From assembly GCA_021234155.1 (NCBI GenBank), contig JAJEKV010000035.1, positions 9,312,779-9,376,778 of the forward strand: DNA of 64,000 nt. The letters run 5' to 3'. Shown here piece by piece: positions 7,910-56,173 of the stretch. Position 1 is the stretch's first letter, and every line of letters starts with the position of its first letter. Made by a program: the position numbers and the translations under genes. The DNA comes from Isoetes taiwanensis (taxonomy: Eukaryota; Streptophyta; Lycopodiopsida; Isoetales; Isoetaceae). The notes beneath the pieces were generated by a model. It saw only the letters and a list, made by a program, of their open reading frames with translations. It was not told where the DNA came from and searched no databases.

Positions 7910-8110
7910 AAATCGGCGTTTTTTTCTGATTTTCTGACATCATCACGGCGGTTTTGGCAGTTGTCGATGTTACCGGCGATTTTCGTGATACATGTAGGCC
8001 TTAATTTACATTGAATTTGCCGGCGTTTGTCAGCGATATATCGTCGGGGACTCATCGAGATATATTACGTCGGACAAATCATTCAATTTTCGGCGATTTT
8101 TACGACACCA
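7910..8110. repeat. CGGCG-rich motif field
   Basis: CGGCG, TCGGCGAT, GCCGGCG and GTCGG words recur through about 200 bp of AT-rich DNA (AAATCGGCG, ACCGGCGATTTTCG, TTGCCGGCGTTTGTC, TTTTCGGCGATTTTTACG). The block resembles the one at 5,235-5,440 and could be the opposite subterminal region of one decayed DNA transposon of roughly 3 kb, but the ends were not identified. Confidence 0.4.
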
Positions 8111-8149
8111 AACCCTCATCCTCTTGTAGTGTTGACCCTCCGAGAAAAA

Positions 8150-11100
8150 CCGTGCCAGCAACAAACCTGCTTGTGTTGTACAAATATATATACACATGAA
8201 TTCGGCACCTCGGTGAAGGTGATGCAGTGTCAAAACCTCACGGGTAAGACAGGGATGTGGCCCGATGGCCTCTTGAGTAGCTTCGATCGCAGAGGCGGAA
8301 CCAGTCGCACAAAGAGGAATGTGGCAGGCAATTTGACTATAAGTGAGCCTGACTCACGGAAGGCATGGCTTTCATCCTCATGACCCCGGCCAGACCCGAC
8401 AAACTTTGTCACAGTAGCTCTCAACCCAGGCCCTCTCTCAAGCCGAGATAGTGGGGCCTGTTGAATGGGCCTTGATAATCCTGGCAGCTTCTTCCATGGA
8501 GCAGGCTGAGCGGTGGGGACCCCGATGCCCTCGAACTAAGATTAGGGTTTGTGTATTTGTAGTGTGCCTGCTTTACACATTCAGAGCATGGGTGGTCTGA
8601 GCTTCCCGAAACAAGAGTCCAGTACCCCTCGGCTGTCCGGTCCGGCGATGCGGCACTGGGCGCACCTGTGCGTCACGTTCAGTAGCGCCGATACTTGGGC
8701 TCTCTTGTCCTTCAACAAGCCACGGTCGTTCGCGGGCTCATCGCCCGCAATGAAAGCCAGAGTGTGGGCAGTGTAATGGCCATGTTGGCCACCTTACGGA
8801 AATAGACAATGTGCCTATCTCCGAGGGGCGCATCGCGCAGGCATGAATCATCTCTGCAACAAAGATCGATATGGGCCGAGGGCTTGGCGCCAGCTGCCCG
8901 CGTCAAGTACATACGGACCTGCTCTGATGTTCCGTCGTAAAGGTACCGCTGGGCCCCACCGACCCATACAAAAGGCGGCTCGACGGTGCGGAATAAATAT
9001 TATTTGGTAGCTGATCCCATACGGCTACATCACAATGAATATTGTTTTGCATTGCGTGCCTGCCTTTAACTGCAGTCACCGAAGGTGATGGATGCATCCC
9101 AACACATTGAGGGCGGGAATTCCACCCCGGTACTTGTAGGCAGGTGTGACCTCCACCGCCCACAGTAAGTGAGGGAGGTGTGGGACGTGAGGAGGATATG
9201 AGGGACCACATGTAGCGAGGTTGACCCACATGTCTGGGTGTGCACGCATTCCCCTGCAGTTGTATATGGAGCCAAGGAGTTCACATCATCGCATAGATAG
9301 GCTGCGGACACAGTGCAGAGCTATCTGGCAAAATCCCCATTGGCGTATGAGGCTTCTTGGTCAATGTAAAGAGTCAAGAAGTGTAGAGTGAGAGGACAAC
9401 CTTGCTTACTCCAATGCTCTTGGCAAATGGCCTCCTTAGGTTGCATCGCGGCTTGTGCAGCTCTCAAATGCGATCTGTACATTTAGATTGCCAGGATCCA
9501 TGAGAGCCCCAAATGGGTGCAATGTAAGCCCTAGCTTTTCTCGAGAGGCGTAGTAGAAAGCCTTTGCAAAGTCCACAAATGCCTTTCGTCTGAAGGTCTC
9601 CTCTAGGCGGTTCTTCTTTGTCCCTCGACCGAGTCTTGAGTGTGAAGATGTGATCAATGAGTGATATGAGTGCCGAGCTTGCGCACAGGTAAATTACGAC
9701 TTTGTGCCTCGCCATCGGTTATCTGTACATTGAGAATACTGACATGACTTGGCAAAATCTTGAAGTGACCATGATGGTTGATTGTTGTTTGGGCGATTAC
9801 TGGGTCCCACGCCTTGTAGATCGGAACAACCACCTTGTAGTCCATGATAGGGGAAAACCCACTTGCGTACATTTAGGCAGGTCTGATCGGGGGCGGGCAC
9901 CATGGGGAACATCTGCCCATGAGCAACTCAGCTTGAGCCATCAAGTACGCGCCTTCATTAGCGGTATTTTACATGACCCTCTTAGGCATCTTCGTGATCA
10001 CCGGCGGTGGAGGCCATGTTAGCGAACATTCATCCTTTTCCGGGGATCATAAAAGTACGTGCGAATCCATCCCAGCGCCATGATGTTCCCAGCGGTGTGC
10101 TGGTCTACGAGGTACCTAAGCCGAAGCTCGGTGAAGCGTCCGGTAGGCGAACATTTCTCCGGTGCCTTGCCAGTGCAGGTGCCTTTGTTTCGCCGGGAGA
10201 ACGCGGTATGGGCGTTAACTTTGGCTTCGGCTGGTCGATCCCGATGAGGCGGTGCGTTTGCGTTCGCCACTTTCAGCATCAAACCATTTGTTCGCAGCGG
10301 GAAGGTTGCGGTCTCGATCTCGCGTGGGGAGGTCTCCCAAAGCATCATGCCGCCCACGCTGCGAGAGCTCAACCGGTGGTTGGTTTACTGTTGCTCCAGC
10401 GTGTGAACTGCCGAAGCCAGCCAGGGAGAATACGAGCATGTCGGCGTAACCCTCATACACTCATAATCCAAAGCGCAACGGAATCGGCAAGATGCTATGC
10501 GAGGGCCATAGCGGTACGACAGAGCCATTACTCCGCATGATGGAGAATTGTTGGTCGGCCTCTTATCACCGTATCCGTCTTGGGCGTGAAAATCGACAAA
10601 GATGCGCATCCTGCGCGGCCACTATGACATAATCCACGACACTAGTTCCGCGCCTTACGTGATTGTGTCTCCTGCAAGTCTACCCGTGGGAAGGGGCCAT
10701 TGTGGTGAATACCATTGCATATGGCGGTCAAGGGCTCAGCACATCGGGAACAATTAATGCACCTTAAGCCAGTGACTTGTTGTCATCTGGCGTCGTGTGC
10801 AAGCACCTCTGCTTGAGACCTGTGCGGCCTTGCGTCATCTGCCCAGGGAGTCCGGCCATATTTTGTTCCACCCTCTGTCGGCATTGAAGTCTCGAGGCTT
10901 AACTTTCAGCCCACATCGGCTTGTCTGGCTGTATGTCATCTTATATGGAGCATCTGGTCCATCTGTCCCTCCGGGTGGCCGTGATAGAAAGGACTCTCTG
11001 CGCTGAAGCCATGGCGACTAGGAAGAGGATCCCTACCGCCGAGGGTACTTTTCGGATCCACAAGTAGCGGTTATGTCTGTCGGTCTTAGGAAACCAAATG

Positions 11101-12800
11101 TGCCAGGCTACCCGGTAGTAGCGAGCAATCCCAGGTACTTAACGTCTCCATGTACAACCATTGAACCTTCCGAAAAATCTTTGGTACTGGCGGTCAGGCG
11201 GCCCCGTGGCCTGGGTGTTCCCATGTCTCCATGAGAGGAAGGAATGGGGTCCATCCCCTGACCTCTTTGGTGGGAGCTATCACCCATACGCCATGGGAAA
11301 CCCCGAGCGTTCAGACCTGCGGAGGCACAGATTCCTATTGAACAGCAGTAGGGCTTGGTGAGTTGGGGAGATTGCTTGACGGAGGCGTGAGGCATTTGGT
11401 GGCGGGGGCGGAACCCGAGCATGAGGCGGGGTCTTGGGGAGTCGGGGAAAGCGGTGTGAGGGTGTCATTTGGCAATGCATGAGTGGAGCTGCGACATTTG
11501 GTCAGCTAGGTCCACGACCACTGGCGAACTCTATCTGCCCAGTGCCCGTGCTGCTGCTTGGAGTAAGATCGGCTCACATCTGAGAGATGTGTGTGCCCTT
11601 GGTACCTGCCACGTAAGTAGTATGGCCTCTCCGAGACTTCGTGCATCATAACCGTGAACACCACTACTGGTGTAGCTGGTGGCCCAGACCCCCTGCCCGG
11701 GCTAATTAGTAACTGACAGTCACGGGCCGAAACATCATGCTTAGGATGCATTGTTTATCTCGGCTGAAATACTAGTGTGGCTCATTTCTGCGGCTTGTTC
11801 TCCGTCCGGGCTGACTCTTACAGGCTGGTCTGTCTTGCCCATCTCCCGATGCGATGCTTCATTGTTCATCGCCTGCACGGCCTGCCGCCTATTTGACGGC
11901 CGGTCGAACTCTGCATTTCCCGTCCAGCCGTCCTTCTCCTAAAACAGTCTTTGCTGGTTAACCTCCAAGGCTGACTGCGGCTACGTCTTGTAGCGAAGTA
12001 GCCTCCTCAACTTCCAAAGCTGGAGTGCGGCACATGCGGCGTATTGCCGCCGGCGTTGGCCTCATCAACCACCTGCGATGTGGTACGGAATGTGGCTGCA
12101 AGTGTAATGCCGTACGCGGTCGTCTTTGGCGGCGTCCGTAGTATCCATCGGGCTTTGCATGTCTGCGGCACTGCCGATCTTCTTTTCTCGATTAGCCTGC
12201 TGTCCAGGATCTTGTCGTCGGTGTGCTTGGGTCTCCAACTTCGATGTCTATGTGTTTTACAGCTATCGCAAGCTGTCTGCGCAACCGTGAGATGTTGCCA
12301 GACTCCATCTCGATCTCCAGGCCCATATGCGGACACTATTAGCCTCAACCCCGGCTTGGATGGCGGCCCAAGATTCTGCGGAGGGGCCACATGGGGCTGG
12401 GCAATAACTTTCGGCTGCGAGGCGGCTTGGGCTGTGTGGAGCCTTGGCCCGGGCCTCGCCTTCTTCACTGGGGATGTCTCTCCCTTGCCCATGCACTTGC
12501 AGGGAGTGCAACTGTAGTGGCCTTCTTGGTTTCCCAGGCAGGTTAGGCCCGGCGGGAGGTCAGTATTTGTCGCGGGGGTTTGCAGGAGTGGTGTTGTGAT
12601 GCGTGACCACGCTGAGGTGATCCCGGACAGCAGGCTGCTCTGTGGCCATGGTAGGGGTATGTACGTCAGCGGGATTTAGGCCTCAGAGGGCTTGTCGGTC
12701 AGCCCGAATGGTGGCAGACTATGTGGGGGGCAATGGCCAGGCTAGAGCAAGGCAAGAAGAAAGCGGTTGAATTTGAGCTATGGCAATGTCGAACAGGAAG
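8150..12800 (-). mobile_element. decayed non-LTR retrotransposon, minus strand
   Basis: This block is clearly richer in G+C than its surroundings and holds many overlapping short ORFs, as expected of an old element broken by frameshifts. Reverse transcriptase motifs are readable on the minus strand at about 9,250-9,660 (separate entry). The upstream part (10,000-12,500 read leftward) would correspond to ORF1/endonuclease, but no diagnostic motif could be read there. A 161-codon basic, proline-rich ORF at 12,007-12,492 (minus) could be part of ORF1 and is not more than a guess. Boundaries are set by composition and are approximate. Confidence 0.5.
9250..9660 (-). pseudogene. reverse transcriptase core of a non-LTR retrotransposon, broken
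   Basis: Read on the minus strand from about 9,640 downward: basic FRRKAFVDFAKAFYYASREK matches the RT palm A motif (F-V-D-x-x-K-A-F-D, with the last D now Y). About 60 codons later comes QGCPLTLHFLTLYID, equal to the QGCPLSPxLFxLYID block, and then a CDDV at the place of the YADDV catalytic box. Order and spacing are those of LINE reverse transcriptases. The 'GLYID' flavour differs from the plant L1 element at 23,565-28,100 and recalls lineages found in algae and invertebrates. Frames change between the motifs and stops intervene, so it is a fossil. Clade assignment needs an alignment. Confidence 0.6.
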
Positions 12801-12844
12801 TGTTGGAGCCCTAGCTCAACATTATTAAATGTATTGTTGTTTCT

Positions 12845-13790
12845 GAGGCGGGGTTCTATCACCGCCTACAATTGTGCATGTATGTGGCCTAAAAGTTTGT
12901 CCCAGCGGATGTGTGTGGTGGGGTGGTATAGGCCTAGTAATGCCAAAATAAATGTGCACTTGGTTAGGGTTCAGCCACGGCGGTGTATGTTTAACTTTGA
13001 AGGTTGGATTCTTAGGGTTGTCTGATGATGATCCCGACGTGGTAGAACTTGTGCCTATCGTGTCCTCCACTTTGTCTGCCATAAAATGACAGGATAAGCT
13101 CACAATAATTGTGTGAATGAACCAGTAAAATTGGCTTCCATGTACACTTGGAACGCTATACTGGTTGTTGCCTAAAAATTTCCACAAACTAGGAAAGGGT
13201 TCTATCTATACAAAGTGTGCATGTATGGCTAAAGTTTGCCCAAAGAGGGATGTGTGGTGAGTTGGTATAGGCCTAGTAATGCCAAAATAAATGTGCACTT
13301 GATTGAAGGGACACCAACCGGCGTGTATGTTAACACAGGAGTTAGTTCTTTGAGATTTATCGATGATGATCCCGGCGTGGTAGAACTTATTACTATCTGA
13401 TAATCTTCCACTTTAATGCGCCATGGAAACAGCGAGGATAAAGCTCCACAATAATTGTGTGAATATATGAACCGGTAAAATTGGCTTCCTGCACCTTTGA
13501 GGGCTATATCTTGGTTGTTGCAAAATGTGGTGATTTGGTATGGAAAGCGTGGTAGAACTTGGTGAGTTGGGTATGCGGAGCTAGTAATGCCAAAATAATT
13601 GGGGGGTTCAAACCTGGCGGTGTAGCTTTGGGAGTTAGTTCTTTGGGGGTTATCTGATGATAGTCCTAGCGATGGTAAGAACTTGTGCCGTGTCCTCGCA
13701 CTTTAACCGCCACGCAAGGCAGCAGATAACTCCACAATAATTGTGAGTATGCACCCGGTAAAATGGCTTACATCCGTTGGGCAAAACTTT
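12845..13790. repeat. three degenerate tandem units (about 300-350 bp)
   Basis: The same series of phrases recurs three times in order. GTTCTATC opens units 1 and 2; CTAGTAATGCCAAAATAA occurs near 12,932, 13,272 and 13,581; CACAATAATTGTG and GTAAAATTGGCTT are in all three, the last copy being slightly altered. Starts are near 12,851, 13,197 and about 13,540. The third unit is shorter and more diverged. Such tandem blocks are often found inside LTRs or promoter regions of retroelements, but no flanking element was identified. Confidence 0.8.
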
Positions 13791-13799
13791 AGCCATACA

Positions 13800-16700
13800 T
13801 TGAGAAATTTTAAGTCTCTTTTCATCCCCACAGAATCCTCAATGGAATGGCTACCCTCTATTAACTGCAATTGTCGGCTGCTTCATTACTATCATTAAAG
13901 ATGTATGAATGGGTTCACTAGATAGATCTTGTGAGCGAACCCATTGCTAGAAAAAGTTTTGAATCGGGTTATGGACAAAGTTATAATAAAAAATGATACC
14001 TCTGGAAGTTAGTTGCAAGCTGCATTGATGCAATTTCTCCCCATCCCCAGAATGAGATATCTGGAGCTCTTCTCTTATTGAATGATTTAAAAGGCGGCTT
14101 ATGGCACATTTTAAGCATCCCTTAATGGGACAAAATGTGATCTCATTTTCCTCTGAAATACATGCCTGAGGCAGGAGTAGAATCGCCTCGAGAAGTCCCG
14201 GAGAATTTTAAGGTAGTAAAAGTGTACTTTCAGAATCAATTTAGGGGACCAAATGTTGTCGAGCACCTTTTTGGGAGTTTGAGGTTTTAAGGGCTAGAGA
14301 GGTGTAAAACCTAGAGAGAGAAAGTGAGGGAAAATCAAGGGGAGAAGCTCTGCTGCAAGAGCGGTGAGAGCCTAGAGAGAGAGTGAGGGGATTTGAGCAT
14401 CTAAGAAAGGAAAGCTCTGTGAAGCAGAAATCTGACTAAATAGCATATTTTGAATTGTTTACTCAATCTCAAAAATAGTTAAAAGCCAAAGATTAGCACT
14501 GTAAAGTACAAATCTATAGATTAGAAGGAAGAGTAAGCAATGATTTGCAACTTTTGACTCATGTTGATTAGGTAAAACAAAGATTCATAAGTTCCAAGAA
14601 GACTCCAATTTGACTTTATTGGTGCAATAGATCAACAAAGTTTGAAAAGGGTTTGTTTGGCCTGATAAGCAACTGGTTCGGACACCATAATCAATGATGT
14701 TGTGTTAGCACCAAATGGACCAATTTTTGATGTCATTCATTTAGGATTTGGAAACTTAATGTTGTGATATTCCTACATGGAAGAAGAGCTAGAGTTTTAG
14801 ATACAGAGCTTATTAGTTATTTTGATGATGTTTCAGATGCTTCTCATGGCATACCTATCTACTCTCACTACAATATAGAAATCTAGATCTCGCAAGGATA
14901 TCCATGACGCTCGATCAGCCGCATGACCTGCTAAAGCCCCATGATCTAAAAGCTTGCACTAGGAGTAGATCATGGCAAAAGTATAAAGCAATATCCTTCT
15001 AATCTGCCAAAATATCCTAGGGCTGAAAAATAGGAGAGCCCCACTTGTTTCTATAGATTTATCAGAGAAAACTTCAAAGGTCAGAAGCCCATATGGAGCT
15101 AAGAATGCTATTTAGATAAACTCACATCCTTCCTTGCGTTTTCTTTTTGGGGGTGTAGGATACTCATGCAGAAACTCAAACGTGGGATCTCACAAAATAC
15201 CCCAATGCACACACATGTGAACAGGGAGCTTGAACCTCATAAGACTATCAGAAATATAGATCAGAAACAAAGCCTTGCCATACCTACAATATATTGATGG
15301 AGATGATAGTTGATCCATGCAAAGGAAAGCTACGAATTATCTGACAAACAACATCTAACGAGAAGAAAGAAAATCCATCGAGCCTGATCAATATACCTAT
15401 GTCTTTGTTGCAGCCGCAAGGCTTGAGCTGAGATCAAGCGTGCCCGCCACCTTGAGCTGCTAGCATTGCCCTCGATAACATAAATGTCATGTGGGTTCAA
15501 TTCTGGGCACAGGTCAATCTCGCATTGCCACGTGGCGAACATTTTTTCAACGAATGTTGCCCTAAACTGCAGTTCGAGATGTCATCATCGTTCCAATCTA
15601 TTTTCACCTGCATTCTTCCTTCTACCTTGCATTCTGATTGCATCCTAAAATGCCTTTCTTGTATACGAAAGGCCTGGTAAGCATAGTAAGTGTTGTGATA
15701 TATGACGTCCCCTACTTCATCTACGATGCTCCCATCGTATCGGAAGGCGGAGTTCATTCCCCTGGCAGCCAAGCTGACAGAGGCCATCCACCTGACACCA
15801 ATCCCTTAGCAAGGAATCGATGAGGAAGAATGGACAGGTCATTTGCCCCGTCTTCCCTCGGGACCGTCCTAGCTGCGGAAGCGTAAATAAATGTAATCAC
15901 ATGACATCAAATACAAATAGAGCCACCTCGAAGGGTGGTTTTACCATAGCATACATGTATAAGCACATCAGTAACATCATCATCAAATGGAAGATCCTAC
16001 TTAAGGCTCAGACTGTAGGGGTATGGACTGACGGTTTGGGTCTTTAGAAGCTATTGCAGACATAATTTATGAGAGTGGATTGGGCTGGCATAGGAACATG
16101 GTTGTCGGGCTCTCCATCCGCCCCTCCTGTGCATACTTTGCAGAATAGGTTGAAGAGTCTTGGGTCTGGACAGTAGCCTGCCAGGTGCGTAGCCAAGGGA
16201 GCTACTACTGGGTTTCATCTCCCCAGCCCCGATGAGGCAGGAAGGGGATCACCCTCTCCAGAGGCACGCATGCCCATCACAAGTGGCTAGAGGGCCACTA
16301 CCCGTCTACGACTTGAACCTCATTGAAGGCGATGCATCACCCAAGAGGTGTCGAGCCCATGCCTTGCCCACACGCGGTGGCAAGCCATTAGGCCTAGCCC
16401 GCTAAGATCCCTAGTAGGCTTTTCACACCAGAGGGATCAATCTGCCATGGGACATGTCCTTCTTATTCCACCGGTCTAGCCCCGCCACTCACAACCAGGC
16501 GGGCTCTTATGCACAGGCCATATTAATTGGGAATTAATGAGGCTATCTAGTACATCTACTACTGAAGCTTTCAGGGTCTCTATCCCCTTTCCAATACATA
16601 GGAGTGCGCATAGAATAGAACATCATCATCAAAGAACTGAAATACAGAGTAACATCTAATCTATCTACCTAAACATACATGGTTAGGTTCCTTTGTTAGG

Positions 16701-23565: not shown

Positions 23566-26500
23566 TGAAGATCACTACATGGAATATGAGAGGTATAAAA
23601 TGACTTCTCAAAAGGAAAAAGGCACTAAATGCACTGAGAGAGATGAAGACTGATATAATTCTTCTGCAGGAACATAGATTACCAGTCTGCAAATCTAGGT
23701 AGTCGGATAATGCCAAATGGAGACTCTATATGGACCTCGGCAGATGGTACTAAAGGAGGAATTTGTATGGTCTGGCAAGGATACATGGGTCTCCAGAAAT
23801 ATAGTCATGCAGGAGGCAGATGGACAGTTGCTATCTTACAAAAAGGAAAGGATGTAGTAGGCATAATTAATGTATATGCCTCAACTGAACTAGCTGAGAG
23901 AGAAGAGCAATGGAAGCAAATTAATACCTGGATCCTAGCCCATCATACAAGGAATTGGTTGATGGCAAGGGATTTTAACAATACACCTGCCTTGGACCAG
24001 AAACTTGGAAAGCAATTGAATATGTCAAAGGGGAGAGACAGGCTTGGGATACTTTAATGTCCCATTTTGTGTATATTCCCCCATCTTCTACCTACCAATA
24101 TTCTTGATGTAATAAAAGGAAAGGTGAACAAAGAATATACTGCCTCCTTGACAGATTCTACCTATGTAATACTAATATGGAAGAATGGGATAATTTGATT
24201 ACCTCATGTGATATAGGTAACTCTATTTCGGACCATTTTCCCCAATTCCTGGGAAACATGACAGCCAAAAAAAGGGGGGGCAAATACAGCATTCAAGTTC
24301 AACACTGGGTTGCTACAAAATAAAAGGTTTGTGAGGCATTTTCTGTATTCTACGGCCAACTTCCTAGGATTTCCCTTACAGAATCCATGAACTCTTTTAT
24401 TCATAGGATGAAGCTGGTTAAATGCTGGGTCAAGGAATGGGGTAAGGAATGGAATATGAAAAAGAAAAAAGAAAAATATGAGGTGTATGAAGCTATGAGA
24501 GAGATTAGGAAGTTACTCTTCCAGGATAAAGACAATAGAATGTGGCAGAATAAAGAATTTGAACTGGAGATCAAAGTCAAGAGTATTGAGGAAGCTGAGG
24601 CAATAAGTCTTGCAGTGTGGAGCAAGTGTAAGTATATAAATGAAAGGATGATGGTAGCTCTGCTTTCTTTCTTTAGACAGCAAAAAGTAGAATTTTGAAT
24701 ATTGGAATTTTCCGACTCATAGGAGGGGAAGGCAAGACCTTGGAAAGTCAGAATGATATTGAGGAATTATTTCACAAGGAGTACAAGACACTTTTCAGTA
24801 ATCACCAGGTTGATGACGAGGAAATGGATAAGTTTTTCACAGGGATTCCTAAAGGGCCACAAATGGAAGAGGATGATATCCTCACTATCCCAGAGGAAAA
24901 GGAAATCAAAGAGACTCTCCAATCTGTCCCATGGTAAGAGCCTGGGTCCAGATGGATTTCAGCCAGAATTCTATTTGGAATTTTGGGACTTAATGAAGGA
25001 GGACTTCGTTTCTTTCATTCAGGGGGCTTGAAGGGCTAAATATTTACATCCAGCAATTAATGCTAGACATATCACACTCATTCTCAAGGTTGATAATCCT
25101 GCACAAATTGGAGATTGGAGGCCGATTTCTCTAACCAATACTACCTATAAAGTTGTGGCTAAAATTTTGGCTAATAGATTAAAGATGATTCTAATCAAAG
25201 TGATTAACCCCTGCCAGTCAGCTTTTCTTCCTCAAAGGAATATCCTGGACAACTATATAGGTGCAGCTGAAGGTCTACATTGGAATAATCGTTCTAACCA
25301 AGACTGCATGCTTCTCATCAGGGTTGCCCTTAAGGCCAAATTTGTCCAAGCATAATTTAGAAGGTCGGGCGAATAATAGAGTTGCAAGATTAGTTATGTT
25401 GGCGAATGTTTTCTAGACATAAATGTTTTTTATAGAAATCTAGGCGAATCATGGCCAATATTATTTTGCGAAGATTTAAGTGTCTTTATTTTCTAAGTGC
25501 AATTTCTATGGTGAAATTTTATTCATCAGCATCCACAAGGATACAAACACATTATAACTATAGTTGCATGATGCAATACCACAATTTAACCTTTATAAAT
25601 GAGAACGTGGCTTATCCTTGTAGATAAAACAAATCTATTAAAAAAGAGGTCTGGAAAAAAATGCTTTCCAGTGCATCCTTAGAAGTATTTGAAACACAAT
25701 AGCTACAAAAATAACTCTTAAAATTATCATATGTACCTGGATATGGAGAATAGATTAGGTTATGAAGAAAGTCTAAAATAATAGGGGATTCCTTAAGAAA
25801 TCTTCGAGAAGGAGGGTAGAGGATAAGGCGAATCCATAGTTATGATGCTTAGCAGATGTGGCGAATTTTCAAGTGGAGTGAGATTTGTTTGTAGAAAAGT
25901 TGGCTAATTTTATTTTTTTAATCTATAATGGGCTCTACTAAACAATAGCGTCAAAATTTCTCAATACCCTTAAAAAATAGCCTTTTGGCGAACTTTCGTC
26001 CTTAAGGGCTACCCTGCTTCTCATGTTAGATTTTAAGAGAGCATATGATACCATTAGTTGGCAATTTCTAAGGGCAATGGCTCATTTGGGGTCTCAGATA
26101 AGTTATATCAAAAGGTGTTTGGGTTTAACACTATGGCTTCATCTGCATTAAAAATTAATAGAACCCCCGCTGATCAATTTCCATGTAGAAGGGGGGTGAG
26201 GCAGGGGTGTCCTTTAGCTCCATATCTCTTTTTGATTGTAGCTGAGGTGGTCACCAAATTGGTTACCCATATACATGACAGGGGAGATATTCAGTGCCTA
26301 AAGCTGCCCGAGGATAAAGGTACTTTCTCTTTAATGCAATATGCTAATGATACCTTTCTAAAACAGGGAGATGAAAGCCTATTAAATTTTCTTACAGCTA
26401 TGAATAAATTTGGTCAAATATCAAAGGTTAGGCTCAACAAGAGCAAATGTGCAATTATCTTAAACTCACAGGAAACAAAGTTGCGGGGATCAAAATTCTG

Positions 26501-32023: not shown

Positions 32024-33107
32024 TTGATTGTTGACCACTATAAAGAATGTGGCAATTTTTGTATTCTTATGGATAGGAATTCGGGATCCGCAAAACTTAT
32101 AAGAGAGGTGAAGATTATAATTTGGGATGAGTTTCCAATGGCGAACAAGGCCGTTATCGAAAGTGTTAACAAGTTGCTACAACAAATTTGTGGAAACCAA
32201 CAACCATTTGGAAACAAATTCTTCATTGCCACAGAAGACTTCAGACAAGTCGCACCCGTGGTCAAAGGAGCCGGACGAACATCAATTATTAATGCATCAA
32301 TAAAATCATCCCGCCTATGGAAATCATTCAAAGTAATTAGACTTTAAAATGTTGGGGACTCAGATTTGCTTGAATTCGTAGACAAGATTGGGAATGATTA
32401 CGAGCACAAGATAGTCTCCATAGATATGAATACAATTACGCCCATTATAGAAGCAATCGAATTTCTTTTCCTTCTAAGCGTTCTACAAGATCCGATAGCT
32501 TGTGAAAAGCGAGCATTCTTATCCCCTCCTAGAATTAGTGCCAACGAACAACCAGACTTATTACAGTTACGATCATATCACTAAAGAAGATCAAGTAGTA
32601 AAAGATCATCCATATGCGACTGCAGACTTCCCAATGAACTTCACACATTCAGGAATACCAGACCACAAAGTCAAACTAAAAAAAGGTGTAGTATGTCACG
32701 TGATGAAACGTTTGGACATCGACAAAGGGCTTGTGAAAAACGCAAGAGTCATAATTGAGTCATTACATAACAAATTTGTCATAGCTAAATTTATTGGCTC
32801 AACGGCACAACCAGAGCAGAATAGAATATCCCGTGTCGATTTCTTTTACCAACATGAAAATCGACCTTGGACAATCCATAGACGCCAATTACCCTTAAGA
32901 CTTGCATATTCCACCACTTTCAATAGCTGTCAGGGATTGACACTAGACCGTATAGTTATAGACTTGCGTACAAATGTATTTGCACATGGACAACTATATA
33001 CTGCAATGACACATATAAGAAAAAGACAGGATGTGCTCGTTTTACTTGCAGAGGACAACGTTACTCATGAGACGACTAATGTTATCTACAAAGAGTTATT
33101 AGAATGA
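32024..33107 (+). pseudogene. Helitron PIF1-like helicase, C-terminal half, broken
   Basis: The plus-strand frames match the helicase half of Helitron RepHel proteins. IIWDEFPMANK is the Walker B (DExx) box at about 32,120; ATEDFRQVAPVV (32,230) corresponds to the GGDFRQ block; KKGVVCHVMKRLDI and the final LPLRLAYSTTFNSCQG and HGQLYTAMTHIR blocks correspond to helicase motifs V and VI. The Walker A segment and the whole Rep (HUH nuclease) domain are missing. The frame changes at about 32,340 (stop) and again near 32,500. An intact protein would unwind DNA during rolling-circle transposition; this copy cannot. Confidence 0.9.
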
Positions 33108-38321: not shown

Positions 38322-38400
38322 CCGGAAGTAGACTGCATTGCTTCGAGGAATAGTTGGTTAATGTCTAAAAGATATAGGCAAGCTTCATTTTAAGGTCCAC

Positions 38401-38960
38401 ATGCACAATGTCACGGCTGAGCAGGTGAGGTCTGGGCAAGAATTATATGCCCTCTATAGTGCTGGGGATATCAAGCATGTGATTACGCTTGACAATCGCA
38501 ACATTATGAGAAGAGCGTTTCATTACTTGTTGTACTATACTGGCAGATTTCGAACAGCCTCTTTCGTGCATAATGTGAAGTTAATGTTGCAGACAATGAA
38601 GTTCAGATTGGCAAGCTCATGGGTTTTACCCAACAATTCGGCATACATTTCCCTTGAGCGTGTGCAGGCGGCATGGCACATAATGCTAGCCCCTGAACGA
38701 TGTGCCTACAGGGATGTTAGAATGGCCTTGTTTGGCAGCCAACCTAGAATCATGCCTGTTGAGCGAATAGGCAAAAGAAGGAGGCGATTTTGGCTGGTGA
38801 TACCTTTGAGGATAGAGAAGGCAGTACAGATCGTGGTAGTAGCGGGGACGAGTTCATTCATGTAGACAGCGGAGTGCGACCATCGCCTCCCGACATCCCG
38901 GCAGTGGATGCTTCATACATTCCTCTTGATATGCATGATTTTGAGTTTGATGTATTATGA
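38401..38960 (+). pseudogene. unrecognised coding sequence with a frameshift
   Basis: A long coding-like frame begins MHNVTAEQVRSGQELYAL and contains RRAFHYLLYYTGRFRTASF. Near 38,775, in a purine run, the sensible frame shifts by one base. The new frame continues with an acidic tail (GSSGDEFIHVDSG, then IPLDMHDFEFDVL) and stops at 38,958-38,960. Composition and lack of internal stops in about 185 codons over two frames indicate a former protein. Preceding TTTTAAG at 38,391 could be an acceptor site. I do not recognise the family; being next to RPA and helicase it may be an element-borne or captured gene. Confidence 0.5.
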
Positions 38961-40194: not shown

Positions 40195-43100
40195 ATGGAA
40201 GAAGAAAACGTTGCATTTTGCTCGGAAGCCAATGTAAGCAAGGATGCACTAGTGCGTTTTAGTTCCTGGTCAGGAATGGCGAGAAAAAGGGCTCCAAATT
40301 CTGGTCGGAGCTGTTCAAGTTTAGAAGATCAACCCACTCCAGACATGAGCAGCAGCCCAAAATGTTATTCTGTGATTCCACCTCGCGGAACCCCCTTAAG
40401 CATCAGCAAGAAGCGCTCTTTAGTCAATTCCGAAGGTCCTAGCCCCTGCTATTCATCACTTGCTGGATTAACTCCTAGTCCTATACCCATCAAGCTAGAC
40501 GATGAATCATATCCTACACATTCCCGATCAAGTAAGAAATTAAAATTCGAAGAGGCAGCAGTTAGCCCGGATGTTGGTATGACGTTCACAGTCCTTCTAC
40601 CTAATGGAAAGAAATTAAACTTGTCGATTGATCCTAAAAGAGAGTGGGAACTTGAAGATTTGCTTTCGGAAATTCAAAACAAAGCTCCCAATTCAGATGG
40701 AGGAAGGAAAATAAAATGGGAAAACGAAATTGTCCTTAAGGACTTTCAGTCCGGAAAAATTGTGGAAAGAATGAGCGACCTCTTTATTCTTGGAAAAACA
40801 AAAGTGACTAAACTGATATTGGAGGTAATCATTTAGTTTGGGAGGATCAATCAGTCTATACCGAACAACTAATAGTACAGTTTATGCGTTCCAGGATGGG
40901 TGCAGAAAATCGGGGTATTTTGACAAGGTTTGTTTGGCTTTCTTTCCGTCCTATTTGTGTGGATGCGCTTTACCATTTTCTTGGCTTATTTTGCAGCATA
41001 TGTGGGATGTTACTCCTGAACCACGGATGCTTGATAGGATCCCTCTTGGTTATGATTTCAATACTGCCTTGGCAGATCAAATAGTAAGTGAGTCTGTTGT
41101 GCTGAGCTTTCTCCACATGCCCAGTTGTTTATGATCTTAGGAGAATTTGACTTTGGCTTCAATGAATTCATTTTAAGTCAATAAAAGTTGTGTGCACAAT
41201 AGTGGCCTTCTCGTGGTTAAATCCTTGTATGGTCCAGGATAACGCGCTACAAGCTGTTTGGTTTAATGACGCCAATTGCAGAAAGTTAGTCAGGTATTCT
41301 GAGTGCAAATCTCATGTCTTTTGTTTATTAAACACAAAATTGCCATTTTCAATACACAATGTTTGTTGCACCTGCAGTGTTGAGATAAACTCTGAAATTG
41401 GTACGATAACAATTTTTGATACTGGACGAGGAATGGATCTGCATGGCAGAAACTCAATTGCCAATTGGTAAATATATGGCATCACTAGTCTTCTTGTCAC
41501 CTTTGCATGGTGCCAATATTCCTATTTTTCTTTTGTTGCAGGGGAACAATAGGTTCCTCGTTGCACAGAGATGTTCATCACCTTGGCATTGGGGGAAAAC
41601 CTCCATTCCTAAAGGTCTCATCTGCTCCCTTAATCTACATTCTTAAGATGTTATATTGCATAGACAGGCACTTTATTAGGTTACATCATATATTGCCTCT
41701 TTGTCTTACAGCCATATTTAGGAAAATATGGGGCCGGGGGCGTTGCAGCTGCTTTACATATTGGACGGTAATACTTACTTTGTAATTTCTCCTCATTATC
41801 AATATCAGAAGCTAGTCTTAAACTGCATGTTCTATTCAAATAATCAAGTGAGCAGATGTCTGCTAGTACGTATTTTCTTTAATTTCAAGAGCCATCATAG
41901 TTATGAAAAAGTGTATATTACAGGAAGGCTGTAGTGCGCTCCAAGACAAAAGCCTCGACAAAGGTGGTTGGTATGGTTATTGATAAAGAAAAGCTTATTG
42001 GGAAGGGCAAAGAAGAATTTGAGAAGGATTGGCACGTAAGTGAAACATGCTTATAGGCGCATGCCTTGAAGTATTATATACTAAGGCCTGGATGCATTAT
42101 GCTTGATAGGAACCTTCACAATGGCATGTACTAATTGTGAATGCACAGAATCCTTAACAAACCTCCATTGGAATTTAGCTCGGTACACTGCTTAATTTGC
42201 AGGCAAACCAATGCATCTCGATTTCCAGTATAATGCGTACCATCTGTTTTATGCAGTTTCTTGGATTATCGCAGAAAGCATTACCTGGCCTTAGGTTCTC
42301 GATAATTGGGTTGTGCATTACTGATGGGAAAGAACTTAAGCATCCTGTGTTGCAATGTTATGCACAACAAGTCATGTACCTGCCTGCATGTTCCACTTAA
42401 ACACTAGTATAATGGTATTTTACCATGTGATGCCTGTTTTGCTTATGATTTTAATACATATCATTGGTTTATGTCAGGTGTCTGGTTTCCTTAGGAACAT
42501 GACAGAAGCTGAACAAGAAAAGGCGCCAGATGGAAGTTTTACTTGTGTAAGTATATCATGAATAGCTAACAGTTAAAGGATAGACTGGACATGATGGAAC
42601 AGTTTTAGCAATGCTTTACATCGACGGAGAACAACTCCGGGGTTTCCTAGATCCTTCGGGTGTACCCTAGATCCACACGCAGCTAAATAACATAGAAAGG
42701 CATTAAAACATAATATTTGATGTCCATTGGTTTTTAAAGCTTTTAGCACGTTCCTCATGTTGATTTAAATTTATAGCTCTCAAAATCGTTCTATTCTCCA
42801 CATGTTTGTAATTGTTAGGAGGGCATCATCCTTAGCATTTAAAACTTAAGTAGACAGAAAACATGAACGTAGTCACTCAGAGATAGGTTCTGATATCAGC
42901 TTTTGGTCCCTTGTTATCATGACTCCTCTTTGAAATGGCTGCTTCTGCTTTTGTATTACTGAGAGTTTTAGTAGAAACTGCTGACTATCTCCTTCCACAC
43001 TATCTTCCTGCTTCAGCACTCTGTTTCCAGTAAAGAATGAAGTTATTTCTACTGGTCGAAGTTTGGGGCTCGACTCCCATTTTCCTTAAGGGAGATCCTT

Positions 43101-51172: not shown

Positions 51173-53100
51173 TTTTTTTTTTTTTTTGAAGGATGAAATT
51201 AACTAATATTACTCCAGAATAACTACAAGATGAGCGATATTAGGGTACTCCTGCCCACTAGAGTGAGCACCCACCTAACATGTGTACCTATCTATGATTG
51301 AAGCCACAAATCTGCCCAGGCTGTCCACAATGTGGAGGGTTCTTTCCCAGACCGCTGCTTTGAACTGCTCTTTCCGAGGGGACGCCAGGTAAGAAAGATA
51401 TAGTTTGTACCTCAACTGTGGGACCAAAGCCTCAGGCTGCGTCTCCGCATTCCTGAACACCTTCATGCGTCGTCGCTTCCAAAATGAGCCACAATAACCA
51501 GGCTTTACACAAATGAAAGGCCAAACTCTGAAGCTGAGACCACCTGTTAGGGTACACCTCCAAAAGAACCTCTTGAGTACAGAGCGGGGAATGCAAGAGG
51601 TGCTGGACCCATTGCCATGCCGGCTGGATATCTGAGCAAAGAAACATGCAGTGTTCCAGAGTTTCCACACAGGCACCACACATAGGATACAGGTTGGTGA
51701 TGCGTGGGTTGATCCTGTAGACCCAAGTGCTCACCCTCAGGGAACGGTGCACAATCTGCCACAGCAATACCCGAATCTTGGGGGGCGAGATTGGGTTCCG
51801 CACCATCTCCAAATGTAGACCCAATCATCTCCCGGCACCTAGAGACTCCAACCGTCCAAAGGAGGCAGCTCATCCTGGATTGCCAAAAGCCCATAACAAG
51901 ATTTCACAAAATTTGAGGGATCTACTTTCGGGTGACACTTCCACACCGGCCCCGATGCCTCATGGGGGGTTCAAATAAACAAGATTACCCCACCTCAAGG
52001 CCCGAGATAGCACAATCCGCTTGAAGCCGTAAATCTACGGCGAAAAAAGCCGCCAAGGTGCCCACCGTCGATATAATATTTTTCGCCACCGTCAATACCC
52101 CACACAAGGCCCCATCTCAATCCCGTTCGATTGACGGCGAGGTCGCCAACTAAAGCGTGTGTGGTCCGAAAGGACCCACCGAAGCCAGGCCTCCAACCCC
52201 GAATGCACCGGTGGCATCAATTGCAAACAGGGGCGACTGCTCCCGTGCTCGCAGAGCCCCTTCCTAAACCAGAGGCATGAGCATCACGGCTTGATATCCA
52301 ATGAACAACGCCCGTGGGAGCCGCGTGAGGCACTGACGGGGCCAGGGAAAACTATCGAAGTGAGACAAAATGCCCGATGAAGCAAGACCATGCCCTGAGT
52401 CGAAAGTGCATTCTCAAGAATGGCAAAGATAAACTTTTGACAAGAGGACCTTGCCATGCGGCCCGAGAGGTCGAAGAAGCCGAAGTCCACCCGCTAAACC
52501 TTGGGCGCTTTTTCCTTCCACCGCACCACCTTAACGGCCAGCCCTTCCCTCATTGCCTCCCCATAATGGGATTCACGAACCATAGAGGAGATTTCCCGCA
52601 CCTTGCTTTTCGGCGCCCGGGATGATAGAGGCCATATAAATATGAGTCGAACATAGGATGGACTTCGCCAACTGTGACCACGCAAAGCCATGGACGGCTT
52701 CCCCCCTTCCACCAATTAAAGGTGCAGCCCCACCGTATGTCCTCCCACATAGCTAATTTGAGATGTCGATGCGGGCAGATACCCAAAAGCTTAGAGCCGC
52801 GTGCCACTGCGCTGCGTTAAGCCAAGGGAATTGGGACCTACCATCGGCATGGGAGTGCTGCCGCGGGCCACAATGCCGAAGCACCGTCCAATTCATAAGG
52901 CGGCCCCGAAGCAAGGGAGAATGTATCCAAGCCCGGCTCGCCGTGTTTAATGATTCCTCTCTCACCAGAAGAAGAGGAACGAATCATCGGCTGCATGACT
53001 CCCCACCGGCCGCGACAAAAGGGCCCGAGGAGATGCGTTGGCGTTTCTTGGCGCTTTTAGGGTTAGCGGCGGCGGCGGCGAGGTCAGCCCCCTTTTCCGG
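51173..53100 (-). mobile_element. 5'-truncated L1-type LINE, minus strand
   Basis: The 3' end is a T15 run at 51,173-51,187 on the plus strand, that is a poly(A) tail preceded by TTTCATCCTTC on the minus strand. About 250-650 bases inside, the zf-RVT domain is readable (minus, 51,432-51,824): PPKIRVLLWQIVHRSLR, then NLYPMCGACVETLEHCMFLC. Further in, minus-strand RT-connection fragments such as LSFWVSARIDISN (about 52,760) appear in changing frames. The element is GC-rich relative to its surroundings and ends near 53,100, without endonuclease, as typical of 5' truncation. It lies antisense to, and probably in an intron of, the gene starting at 50,610. Confidence 0.8.
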
Positions 53101-54536: not shown

Positions 54537-55020
54537 CTAATGATGCATGGGATCCGGTCCAGAAGGGGCCTGCCTTTCAGGCTTAACATTTGCGTCAGTT
54601 GTCGATTCCATGCCCATTCTCCTCGTCATTTGATTCTCATCCTGTAAAAATCTTCTTTGATGCATCCTCAAATCGGCAGCAGAACTCTGTAATATGCAAA
54701 TAATCAGAACATTTATCTAAAAAGGCAACATCTGCAAAAATCGAAGTCTGTGATAAATTTTACCTCCGTAGCATGAATCTGAACCGCATTGGCCTGTTCC
54801 AGAGTTCTGGCCTCTGTTTTGTCTAAATGAAATCAGAAACGTTAATTAGTACAATGCAAGTGGAAATGAATATCTGAATCGATCAATGAAATTTCATCAA
54901 AAACAGACCTTTTGGTTCAATCCGAGCAGAACCGGTTCTAAAGAGCAGGAAAATAGTCACCATAATCAACAATTTTCTGCGTGCCGAGATGATTCCGACG
55001 AGATTTGAAGCGCTTTCCAT
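54537..55020 (-). CDS. CLE signalling peptide precursor, three exons
   Basis: Minus strand, exons 55020-54909, 54822-54764 and 54686-54537; 106 residues. Exon 1 encodes a short N-terminus and a hydrophobic signal segment (KLLIMVTIFLLF, residues about 16-27). Exon 2 begins DKTEARTLEQ. Exon 3 ends RQAPSGPDPMHH immediately before TAG. This is a canonical CLE dodecapeptide (R-x-x-P-S-G-P-D-P-x-H-H, as in CLV3 RTVPSGPDPLHH). Intron phases are 1 and 0, borders GT-AG. Two introns are the plan of CLV3/CLE40-type genes; most CLE genes have none. The peptide would be secreted, trimmed and sensed by LRR receptor kinases (CLV1/BAM type) in meristem control. Ala replaces the usual Val before Pro. It is too short per exon to show as an ORF. 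No defect is visible. Confidence 0.9.
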
Positions 55021-55557
55021 ACTTTTTACTTCGAAAATCGGAATAGAAATTCTAGTATATCAAAATTGTGCAAAAGCAAGCAGAATGAATTGGGAAAAAC
55101 GCTGCAATCTGCCCAGAAAGAAGGAATGCTGAATCCTTATAAGGAGAGAACAGATCCGGTGATAAATATCCAATTTCATCATTGCCGCAAAGAGCTACTT
55201 GGATTGAATGCTAAAACGGTAATGGGTTTAACGAATTGAGGGGATCTGCAATGAAATTTTGCGCAGAATTTAAGATGGTGGGTTAGGGTTTAGGATAGTG
55301 GGCAGTAAATGCGATCTCCGATTAACGAATTTGGGGCTCCAGTAATGATTATGTGTTGCGGATTTGAGAGAATATAACTAATCTGATGTGATTATGTATT
55401 AATTTAGGGGATTTAGGGCCGCTCTGCTCATCATTCTTCTCCGGTTTATATAATGTGCACTGGTTCGCGGTTTATTGGTGTTGCTCATAGAATCTCCTCT
55501 TGTTTCCAAATCCATTATCCCGGTCTCCAATTCCTAGCAATTTCTTAAATCTGCAAG
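55021..55557. promoter_or_regulatory. shared intergenic promoter of the divergent CLE pair
   Basis: 537 bp between the two start codons must hold both 5' UTRs and core promoters. A TATA-like TTTATATAAT lies at 55,445-55,454, about 105 bp before the plus-strand ATG. CCTTATAAGG at 55,135-55,144 lies about 115 bp before the minus-strand ATG. Both distances suit plant TATA boxes. Specific transcription-factor sites are not claimed. Confidence 0.6.
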
Positions 55558-56173
55558 ATGGGTTCTGTTTCCAAACCTTTGATCGTGATTTTGATGCTTG
55601 TTGTGATATCTCTGCGATCTTCACATTGCAGATCCGGTGGATTTTTTGCTGGTGAGTGCTTGGAGTTATGATTTTTCTTTAGAGTCCTCTCTTCTAACTT
55701 TCGGAATTGCTTTTATTGACGGATTGATTCTGTTTCAAATAGCGAATTCCGGCTTCTTGAATAAAATCCGATCAAATTCTCATCTTTTAGTCCATCTTGT
55801 AGATTTCTGAGAAAATCCTCTGTTCTAACTTGTTTAGATTACTCTTTCTACCAGATCAGGAGACAGAAAGCAGATCTGGATCAATGAGATTCATCTCAGA
55901 GGTAAGGGAGACCGAAAATTTATGTTTTCGAATGACAATTTATGTTTTCGAATGCTGGGATTTGAAAGAGGAAGTGCGTTACAGGGCAAAGGGGCAATTG
56001 GACGGTCAGGGAAGGAGGTGAAAAGGCTGGTGCCATCAGGGCCGTCAGATCCTGAACATTGCGAGAGAGCATATGAGCCAGAAAGAGAAGTGCCTTCAGG
56101 ACCAAGCGATCCTTTGGGATATTTCAATACCATTGATGAATGCTGGAAGTTGCATACCCCTTTCAACCCCTAA
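55558..56173 (+). CDS. CLE-like precursor with two divergent PSGPSDP motifs, three exons
   Basis: Exons 55558-55651, 55855-55901 and 55985-56173 (GT-AG; phases 1 and 0); 109 residues. Exon 1 is a signal peptide (KPLIVILMLVVISLRSSHC). Exon 2 begins DQETESRSGS, matching the neighbour's DKTEART at the same place. Exon 3 carries two motifs, KRLVPSGPSDPEH and EREVPSGPSDPLG, 14 residues apart between their cores, then a 19-residue tail with a Cys-Trp pair. Compared with the CLE core VPSGP[DN]P each has one extra Ser (GPSDP), and SGPS is also the core of PIP/IDA-like peptides. Shared intron phases and exon 2 start with the divergent neighbour favour CLE paralogy. The 83-bp second intron holds a 20-bp tandem duplication (55,917-55,956); without its splicing the motif frame is lost. 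Secreted ligand function is inferred. Confidence 0.75.

Follow-up and report, generated by a model that had tools for sequence, protein, structure and literature searches.

The Arabidopsis genes CLV3 and CLE40 lie at separate loci, and the introns of CLV3 are of phases 1 and 0. The statements that we take from cited papers refer to excerpts of their texts. In the shoot meristem of Arabidopsis, CLV3 and CLE40 are related ligands, one of which limits and the other promotes WUS (PMC9434304), and in soybean and bean an intron is predicted in all CLE genes of Group I, the CLV3/CLE40 group (PMC4526924). Precursors with several CLE domains have been described as rice CLE75/76, wheat CLE30/31 and Medicago MtCLE14 (PMC2254619, PMC4526924). 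Among the neighbouring peptide families, PIP/PIPL precursors end in GxGH, and PIP2, PIP3 and PIPL1 carry the SGPS motif twice in tandem (PMC4526919). It has been proposed that SGP-rich peptides form a superfamily (PMC4154866), and a shared ancestor of CLE and IDA/IDL has been argued, with motifs transitional between CLE and IDA (PMC7552357). Our search of the open full-text literature, as far as its texts could be seen, found no study of Isoetes CLE genes, which thus seem unstudied.

The window, by which we mean the whole stretch of 64,000 nucleotides of Isoetes taiwanensis DNA analysed here (contig C1040), contains two three-exon genes transcribed away from each other with 537 bp between their ATGs. 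The earlier note had proposed such a divergent pair with intron phases 1 and 0, and its layout is borne out at base level: with exon limits set from GT/AG sites and open frames, all four introns are GT-AG and each gene shows phases 1 and 0. The minus-strand gene is of CLE type, and the plus-strand gene belongs to a family that we label DM (dual motif). The gene structures, the DM family, a second pair of the same kind, the constraint on the motif and a likeness to CLE greater than that to IDA/PIP were all derived from sequence. The features of the locus are the following:

54537..54686, minus strand: CLE exon 3, with stop
54540..54575, minus strand: CLE dodecapeptide RQAPSGPDPMHH
54764..54822, minus strand: CLE exon 2, phase-0 donor
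54909..55020, minus strand: CLE exon 1, candidate signal segment, phase-1 donor
55021..55557, no strand: intergenic region, 537 bp between ATGs, candidate bidirectional promoter
55135..55144, minus strand: TATA-like palindrome CCTTATAAGG, some 120 bp ahead of the CLE ATG, a consensus match only
55447..55453, plus strand: TATA-like box, some 110 bp ahead of the plus-gene ATG, a consensus match only
55558..55651, plus strand: DM exon 1, candidate signal segment, phase-1 donor
55855..55901, plus strand: DM exon 2, phase-0 donor
55985..56173, plus strand: DM exon 3, both motifs and stop
56024..56053, plus strand: DM motif 1, RLVPSGPSDP, then EHC
56084..56113, plus strand: DM motif 2, REVPSGPSDP, then LGYF...DECW

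The minus-strand product has 106 residues and ends in RQAPSGPDPMHH, directly followed by the stop codon. This dodecapeptide fits R-x-V-P-x-G-P-[DN]-P-x-H-[HN] save at one position; the CLV3-type peptide announced in the earlier note is present, with Ala standing at position 3 for the usual Val. The N-terminus shows a hydrophobic core (mean Kyte-Doolittle 3.24 over 10 residues, at residue 17), values stay at or below 0.14 from residue 36 on, and (-3,-1)-type cleavage sites follow residues 31/32. The plus-strand product, of 109 residues, has an N-terminal mean of 3.94 over 10 residues and values of at most 0.42 from residue 36 on, in agreement with the signal segments that had been claimed for both genes. 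Two Pfam matches of the CLE protein were both sub-threshold and were taken as chance. CLE precursors are thought to be cut before Arg1, and the prohormone encoded here would be cut before that residue, which would free the C-terminal dodecapeptide. With the CLV3/CLE40 group the window CLE shares the signal segment, the variable region, the introns and a C-terminal R-x-x-P-[STA]-G-P-D-P-x-H-H; it differs in Ala3, Met10 and the lack of a C-terminal tail, and the likeness meant here is one of sequence features. By these features the minus-strand gene is an intron-bearing CLV3-type CLE, of a class already known.

A codon pattern for the canonical CLE motif gave 16 matches in the genome and none with the reversed control. 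One is the window gene, and 14 of the 15 others were fetched, the second site on C944 being left out. They include, with the window, five distinct intron-bearing CLV3-type genes, on C1040, C1063, C1073 (with a copy on C941), C1053 and C1072, each modelled with three exons and phases 1 and 0; their limits were placed by eye on frame-keeping GT/AG sites, and alternative exon limits were tried for the C1063 CLE and the window DM gene only. The other CLE genes appear single-exon or unclear. A C-terminal tail is present in three of the intron-bearing genes and absent from those of the window and C1063, the latter of which has Val at position 3. The final exon of the C1072 CLE has partial matches (81-92%) at C1034:21933988, C908:2062252 and C995:254153, one of them with a stop. 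The CLE gene with HLVPSGPDPLHNR is multi-copy (L025, L026, L030 and L033) and might have been spread by a mobile element, since the 94-96% identity of L025 and L026 to L030 extends over no more than 885 and 524 bp.

The plus-strand gene carries two copies of the motif P-[ST]-G-P-x-[DH]-P, which corresponds to the CLE core with one inserted residue, a point absent from the earlier note. The codon pattern R-x-[VI]-P-S-G-P-[SN]-[DH]-P had seven matches in 1.66 Gb and its reversed control one; six of the seven are both motifs of the DM genes on C1040, on C1063 and on C1073 at 4.340 Mb (C1073a), and the seventh, on C1045, is unrelated. A fourth distinct gene, on C1073 at 4.555 Mb (C1073b), was found by protein search; its motifs read RSTPTGPFDP and REVPSGPQDP, it has a copy on C941 (L044/L045, 96.5% identical over 4480 bases), and it was modelled with two exons and one phase-1 intron, exon 2 appearing lost. 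The phases are 1 and 0 in the other three genes, and all four have a hydrophobic N-terminus (Kyte-Doolittle 2.60-3.94). The distance from motif 1 to motif 2 is 20, 29, 31 or 34 residues, and 15-23 residues, one Cys among them, follow motif 2. All eight motifs read GPx[DH]P and none has the GP[DN]P of a canonical dodecapeptide; if 12 residues are counted, the last one of motif 1 is H, Q, N or H, to be compared with the H or N of CLE peptides, a likeness that motif 2 does not share. No further clear member emerged when the last exon of every DM gene was searched against the genome; the weaker matches (E 0.12 to 3.3) include several with stops, and the one that was fetched, on C1038, contained no DM motif in a motif scan. 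These searches give lower bounds, and the family has at least four members. As an observation on the contigs themselves, C1073 and C941 share stretches that are 96.5-97.2% identical (L013/L015, L044/L045); on either contig one such stretch contains a CLE gene and a different one a DM gene, which points to a recent segmental duplication or a retained haplotype.

Nei-Gojobori distances among the DM genes were computed over 91-108 codons. Synonymous divergence is saturated (dS 1.39-2.43) and dN is 0.52-1.11, with 1.74 and 0.52 for the C1040/C1063 comparison; for the CLE genes of the two pairs, dS is 1.25 and dN 0.76. Much of each precursor is loose, since whole-gene dN/dS reaches 0.30-0.72 in DM and 0.61 in the CLE genes. 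Motif 1 is constrained in three of the four DM genes, as it is nearly unchanged at near-saturated synonymous sites: changes amount to 8.0 of 8.5 synonymous and 0 of 21.5 nonsynonymous sites between C1063 and C1073a, 7.5 of 8.9 and 1.5 of 21.1 between C1040 and C1063, and 6.5 of 8.9 and 1.5 of 21.1 between C1040 and C1073a. The motif 1 of C1073b is looser, with 7-8 nonsynonymous changes. Motif 2 is less clear-cut (synonymous 2.0-7.3 of about 7.8, nonsynonymous 1.0-5.0 of about 22; for C1063 against C1073a, 2.0 of 7.8 and 2.0 of 22.2). The dodecapeptides of the two CLE genes show 5.5 of 8.5 synonymous and 2.5 of 27.5 nonsynonymous changes. Judged by these patterns, the plus-strand gene is a member of a four-gene family with a constrained motif and not a decaying CLE copy, and its description as the partner that "has diverged", in the sense of a mere degenerate duplicate, has to be given up.

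The relationship between DM and CLE was assessed by local alignment of the four DM last exons with the five intron-bearing CLE last exons. In 18 of these 20 comparisons, which are not independent, at most 2 of 1000 shuffles scored as well; the weak cases are C1063/C1073 (72 of 1000) and C1073a/C1072 (30 of 1000). The best blocks, among them KRLVPSGP(S)DPxH and QPERxVPxGP(x)DP, take in residues before Arg1. All eight DM motifs scored higher with their best CLE reference than with IDA, the IDA-like PVPP motif or PIP1. DM also has the architecture of the intron-bearing CLE class, with phases 1 and 0 in three of four genes and hydrophobic N-termini. Since these phases recur in all five intron-bearing CLE genes and the best CLE reference scores above IDA/PIP for each motif, DM is, on sequence grounds, most likely a CLE-derived precursor in which the motif was doubled and one residue inserted.

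The inverted tandem duplication that the earlier note had read from the window pair thus keeps its core, a likely common ancestry; the matching phases are weak evidence for the duplication itself, because all five intron-bearing CLE genes have them. The common opening of exon 2 that had been cited alongside does not recur: the C1063 CLE reads ELKSENLHR..., the C1063 DM gene DRNAESKVW... and the plus-type gene on C1073 ARLDPQNEV..., so that the resemblance in the window looks local and is no evidence of kinship. The multi-CLE-domain proteins resemble DM in having more than one CLE-type motif per precursor. Their motifs, as far as the excerpts show them, have no insertion before D/N-P, whereas all eight of DM are longer by a single residue (GPx[DH]P), and DM differs further in the Cys after each motif and in a tail common to three of the four proteins. 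The GPx[DH]P form is not found among the motifs given in the excerpts of PMC2254619, PMC4526924, PMC4526919, PMC4154866 and PMC7552357, and the strings PSGPSDP, PSGPNDP, SGPSDP and SGPNDP are absent from the open full texts that were searched. DM is apparently undescribed, as a derived form of a known kind, CLE.

The regular placement of cysteines raises another possibility, namely that DM is a secreted protein whose motifs are not freed and whose two Cys make it a small folded peptide acting whole. Past the signal segment each of the four proteins contains two Cys and no more, the first following motif 1 and the second motif 2, at distances of 27, 31, 28 and 32 residues, as regular as the motifs themselves, and the tail Y-[FL]-x-x-x-[DE]-[DEN]-C occurs in three of them. 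Against this, the CLE-like cores are the longest conserved runs, and the residues preceding each Arg match those of CLE precursors of the same genome, so we regard a peptide acting whole as possible and rather unlikely.

Still less probable, in our view, is that DM stands in the SGP-rich branch of IDA and PIP, or at its lycophyte root, with its CLE likeness being that of the superfamily in general. The proposed superfamily and the argued CLE-IDA/IDL ancestor (PMC4154866, PMC7552357) would leave room for such a placement; the SGPS core is common to IDA/IDL, PIP/PIPL and, in three of the four DM genes, motif 1, the tandem motifs recall PIP2, PIP3 and PIPL1 (PMC4526919), and for every DM motif 1 the score of TDIF by itself is equal to or lower than that of the IDA-like or PIP1 motif. 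However, the best CLE reference leads for every DM motif, the R-x-V-P-S-G-P frame is CLE-like, and neither the [RK][RK]HN ending of IDA (as in KRHN) nor the GxGH ending of PIP occurs in any of the four DM precursors. The phases 1 and 0 shared by three DM genes and the intron-bearing CLE genes weigh in the same direction, as does the reported absence of IDA/PIP genes from Selaginella, according to the excerpt of PMC4526919.

A derivation of DM from CLE, which we prefer, is joined by a second head-to-head pair. A search with CLE exon 3 gave a match outside the window at C1063:3125881-3125979 on the minus strand (E 0.017), and one with plus-gene exon 3 gave C1063:3127123-3127317 on the plus strand (E 5e-4). 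The two belong to a CLE and a DM gene standing head to head, with three exons each, phases 1 and 0 and ATGs 516 bp apart; the CLE product has 88 residues and ends in ...QRQVPSGPDPVHH, and the DM product has 109. We judge the finding in the window to be real and beyond chance because this second, diverged CLE/DM pair exists; that two rare gene types should have come to stand like this twice by chance is implausible, on judgement and not by calculation. That the plus-strand gene consists of chance frames or decayed CLE duplicates beside a real CLE is highly improbable: its exons are small and known from sequence alone, and the window protein has no Pfam match, yet the C1063 pair of the same architecture, the conservation of the motif at near-saturated synonymous divergence and the open frames in four DM members all contradict it.

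Bidirectional pairs are defined by start sites less than 1 kb apart; the distances measured here, 537 and 516 bp, are those between ATGs. Orientation and spacing recur in the second pair, and CLE and DM may share a promoter. The C1063 plus gene has a TATA-like sequence 91 bp before its ATG, and none was seen at the corresponding place before the C1063 CLE. The intergenic DNA of the two pairs gave no alignment above shuffles (188 of 200 as good locally, 176 of 200 globally), so that the sequences themselves lend no support to a conserved promoter common to the two genes. Among the matches listed for bidirectional or head-to-head gene pairs in the literature, CLE genes go without mention.

The history of the two pairs was approached through their genes and surroundings. 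When the window was compared by blastn with about 51 kb round the C1063 pair, no synteny of the flanks emerged: the five matches, 70-610 bp long, all lie away from the pair and are probably repeats. The gene at 40195-40833 of the window, an open reading frame with no Pfam match, has a copy on C1029 (99%) and a relative on C1036 (66%), and none was reported on C1063. With exon 1 excluded, the C1040 and C1063 CLE genes are reciprocal best matches (z 13.4). Their propeptides are hardly alignable beyond the dodecapeptide and its flank, and C1063 is closer to C1072 than to C1040; when the dodecapeptide is removed, only this C1063-C1072 likeness is clearly beyond shuffles (4 of 500 as good). Among the DM genes, C1040 is nearest to C1073a (z 22.7) and C1063 scores lower (z 15.9). 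An old head-to-head pair, with the close partner of C1073a since lost, would fit these scores. A CLE gene of the intron-bearing class does lie on C1073, about 73 kb beyond the C1073a DM gene; there is no CLE motif in the 12 kb upstream of C1073a or the 2.8 kb upstream of C1073b. In a scan of intron-bearing CLE genes, no opposite-strand DM-type frame was found upstream of those on C1073, C941, C1053 and C1072 (1.25-1.57 kb each). The dS of 1.74 between the C1040 and C1063 DM genes is near the Ks of about 1.8 of the ancient Isoetes genome duplication (PMC8566536); a dating of the pair to that event is only suggestive, the CLE and other DM values scattering over 1.25-2.43.

Taken together, we consider it fairly probable that the window holds a functional CLE gene and a CLE-derived DM prohormone gene, set head to head as secreted-peptide genes. 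DM would have come from an intron-bearing CLE, probably through an inverted tandem duplication, after which the motif would have been duplicated internally and would have gained one residue between Pro7 and Asp8 (SGP-x-DP). After secretion and cleavage it would probably free one or two CLE-like ligands, possibly including the following Cys, and these might, in a shifted register, bind CLV1/BAM/PXY-class LRR receptor kinases. The adjoining promoters may bring both ligands into the same or neighbouring cells. The mention of cones had implied a seed-plant setting, which does not apply to the lycophyte host, Isoetes taiwanensis, a plant with a cambium and a zoned shoot apex. A bolder proposal, which we hold tentatively and find doubtful, is that DM represents an undescribed class of CLE-derived prohormone with two register-shifted SGP-x-DP ligands per molecule, intermediate between CLE and the SGPS peptides (IDA/PIP), and that its head-to-head position beside a CLV3-type gene has been maintained, one promoter serving both and coupling a stem-cell signal with its modifier. 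The CLV3-CLE40 pair and the window pair each consist of two related ligands, both canonical in the former, whereas DM is non-canonical; an opposition of CLE and DM like that of CLV3 and CLE40 is speculation by analogy. If the DM peptides are active, they would offer a natural test of how one residue inserted in the Gly-Pro stretch affects receptor choice, and a candidate case of new ligand classes emerging from CLE-type ligands. The intron-bearing CLV3-type genes described here inform the age of the CLV3/CLE40 gene architecture.

Some further observations concern the rest of the window and the assembly. Mobile-element remnants lie at 26058-26498, 51435-51824, 32499-33104 and 38362-38862 of the window, with reverse transcriptase and zf-RVT above the Pfam cut-offs and a Pif1-type helicase and Replitron_HUH below them. 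Positions 8001-14000 form a GC-rich block (0.49-0.56 against about 0.40-0.41 on both sides) with no Rfam match, and no Pfam match for the two frames tested. Elsewhere in the assembly, C840 (34,556 bp; L016/L017) carries psaA/psaB of plastid type, both intact and with a GC content of 30-31%, whose DNA shares no more than 77-89% identity with the nuclear plastid insertions tested; the contig is probably a contaminant, perhaps from a bryophyte. For the plastid-type psaA fragment of C450 the highest PDB scores (1047-1056 bits) belong to three groups of chains, two of them from the moss Physcomitrium, and the following groups, some from seed plants, reach 1009-1029 bits; a conifer origin of the genome was rejected. 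The fragment has no match with the insertion on C1045, aligns to the C1028 and C1048 insertions at 78-86% identity with many gaps, and is 99.8-100% identical to those on C963 and C1026.
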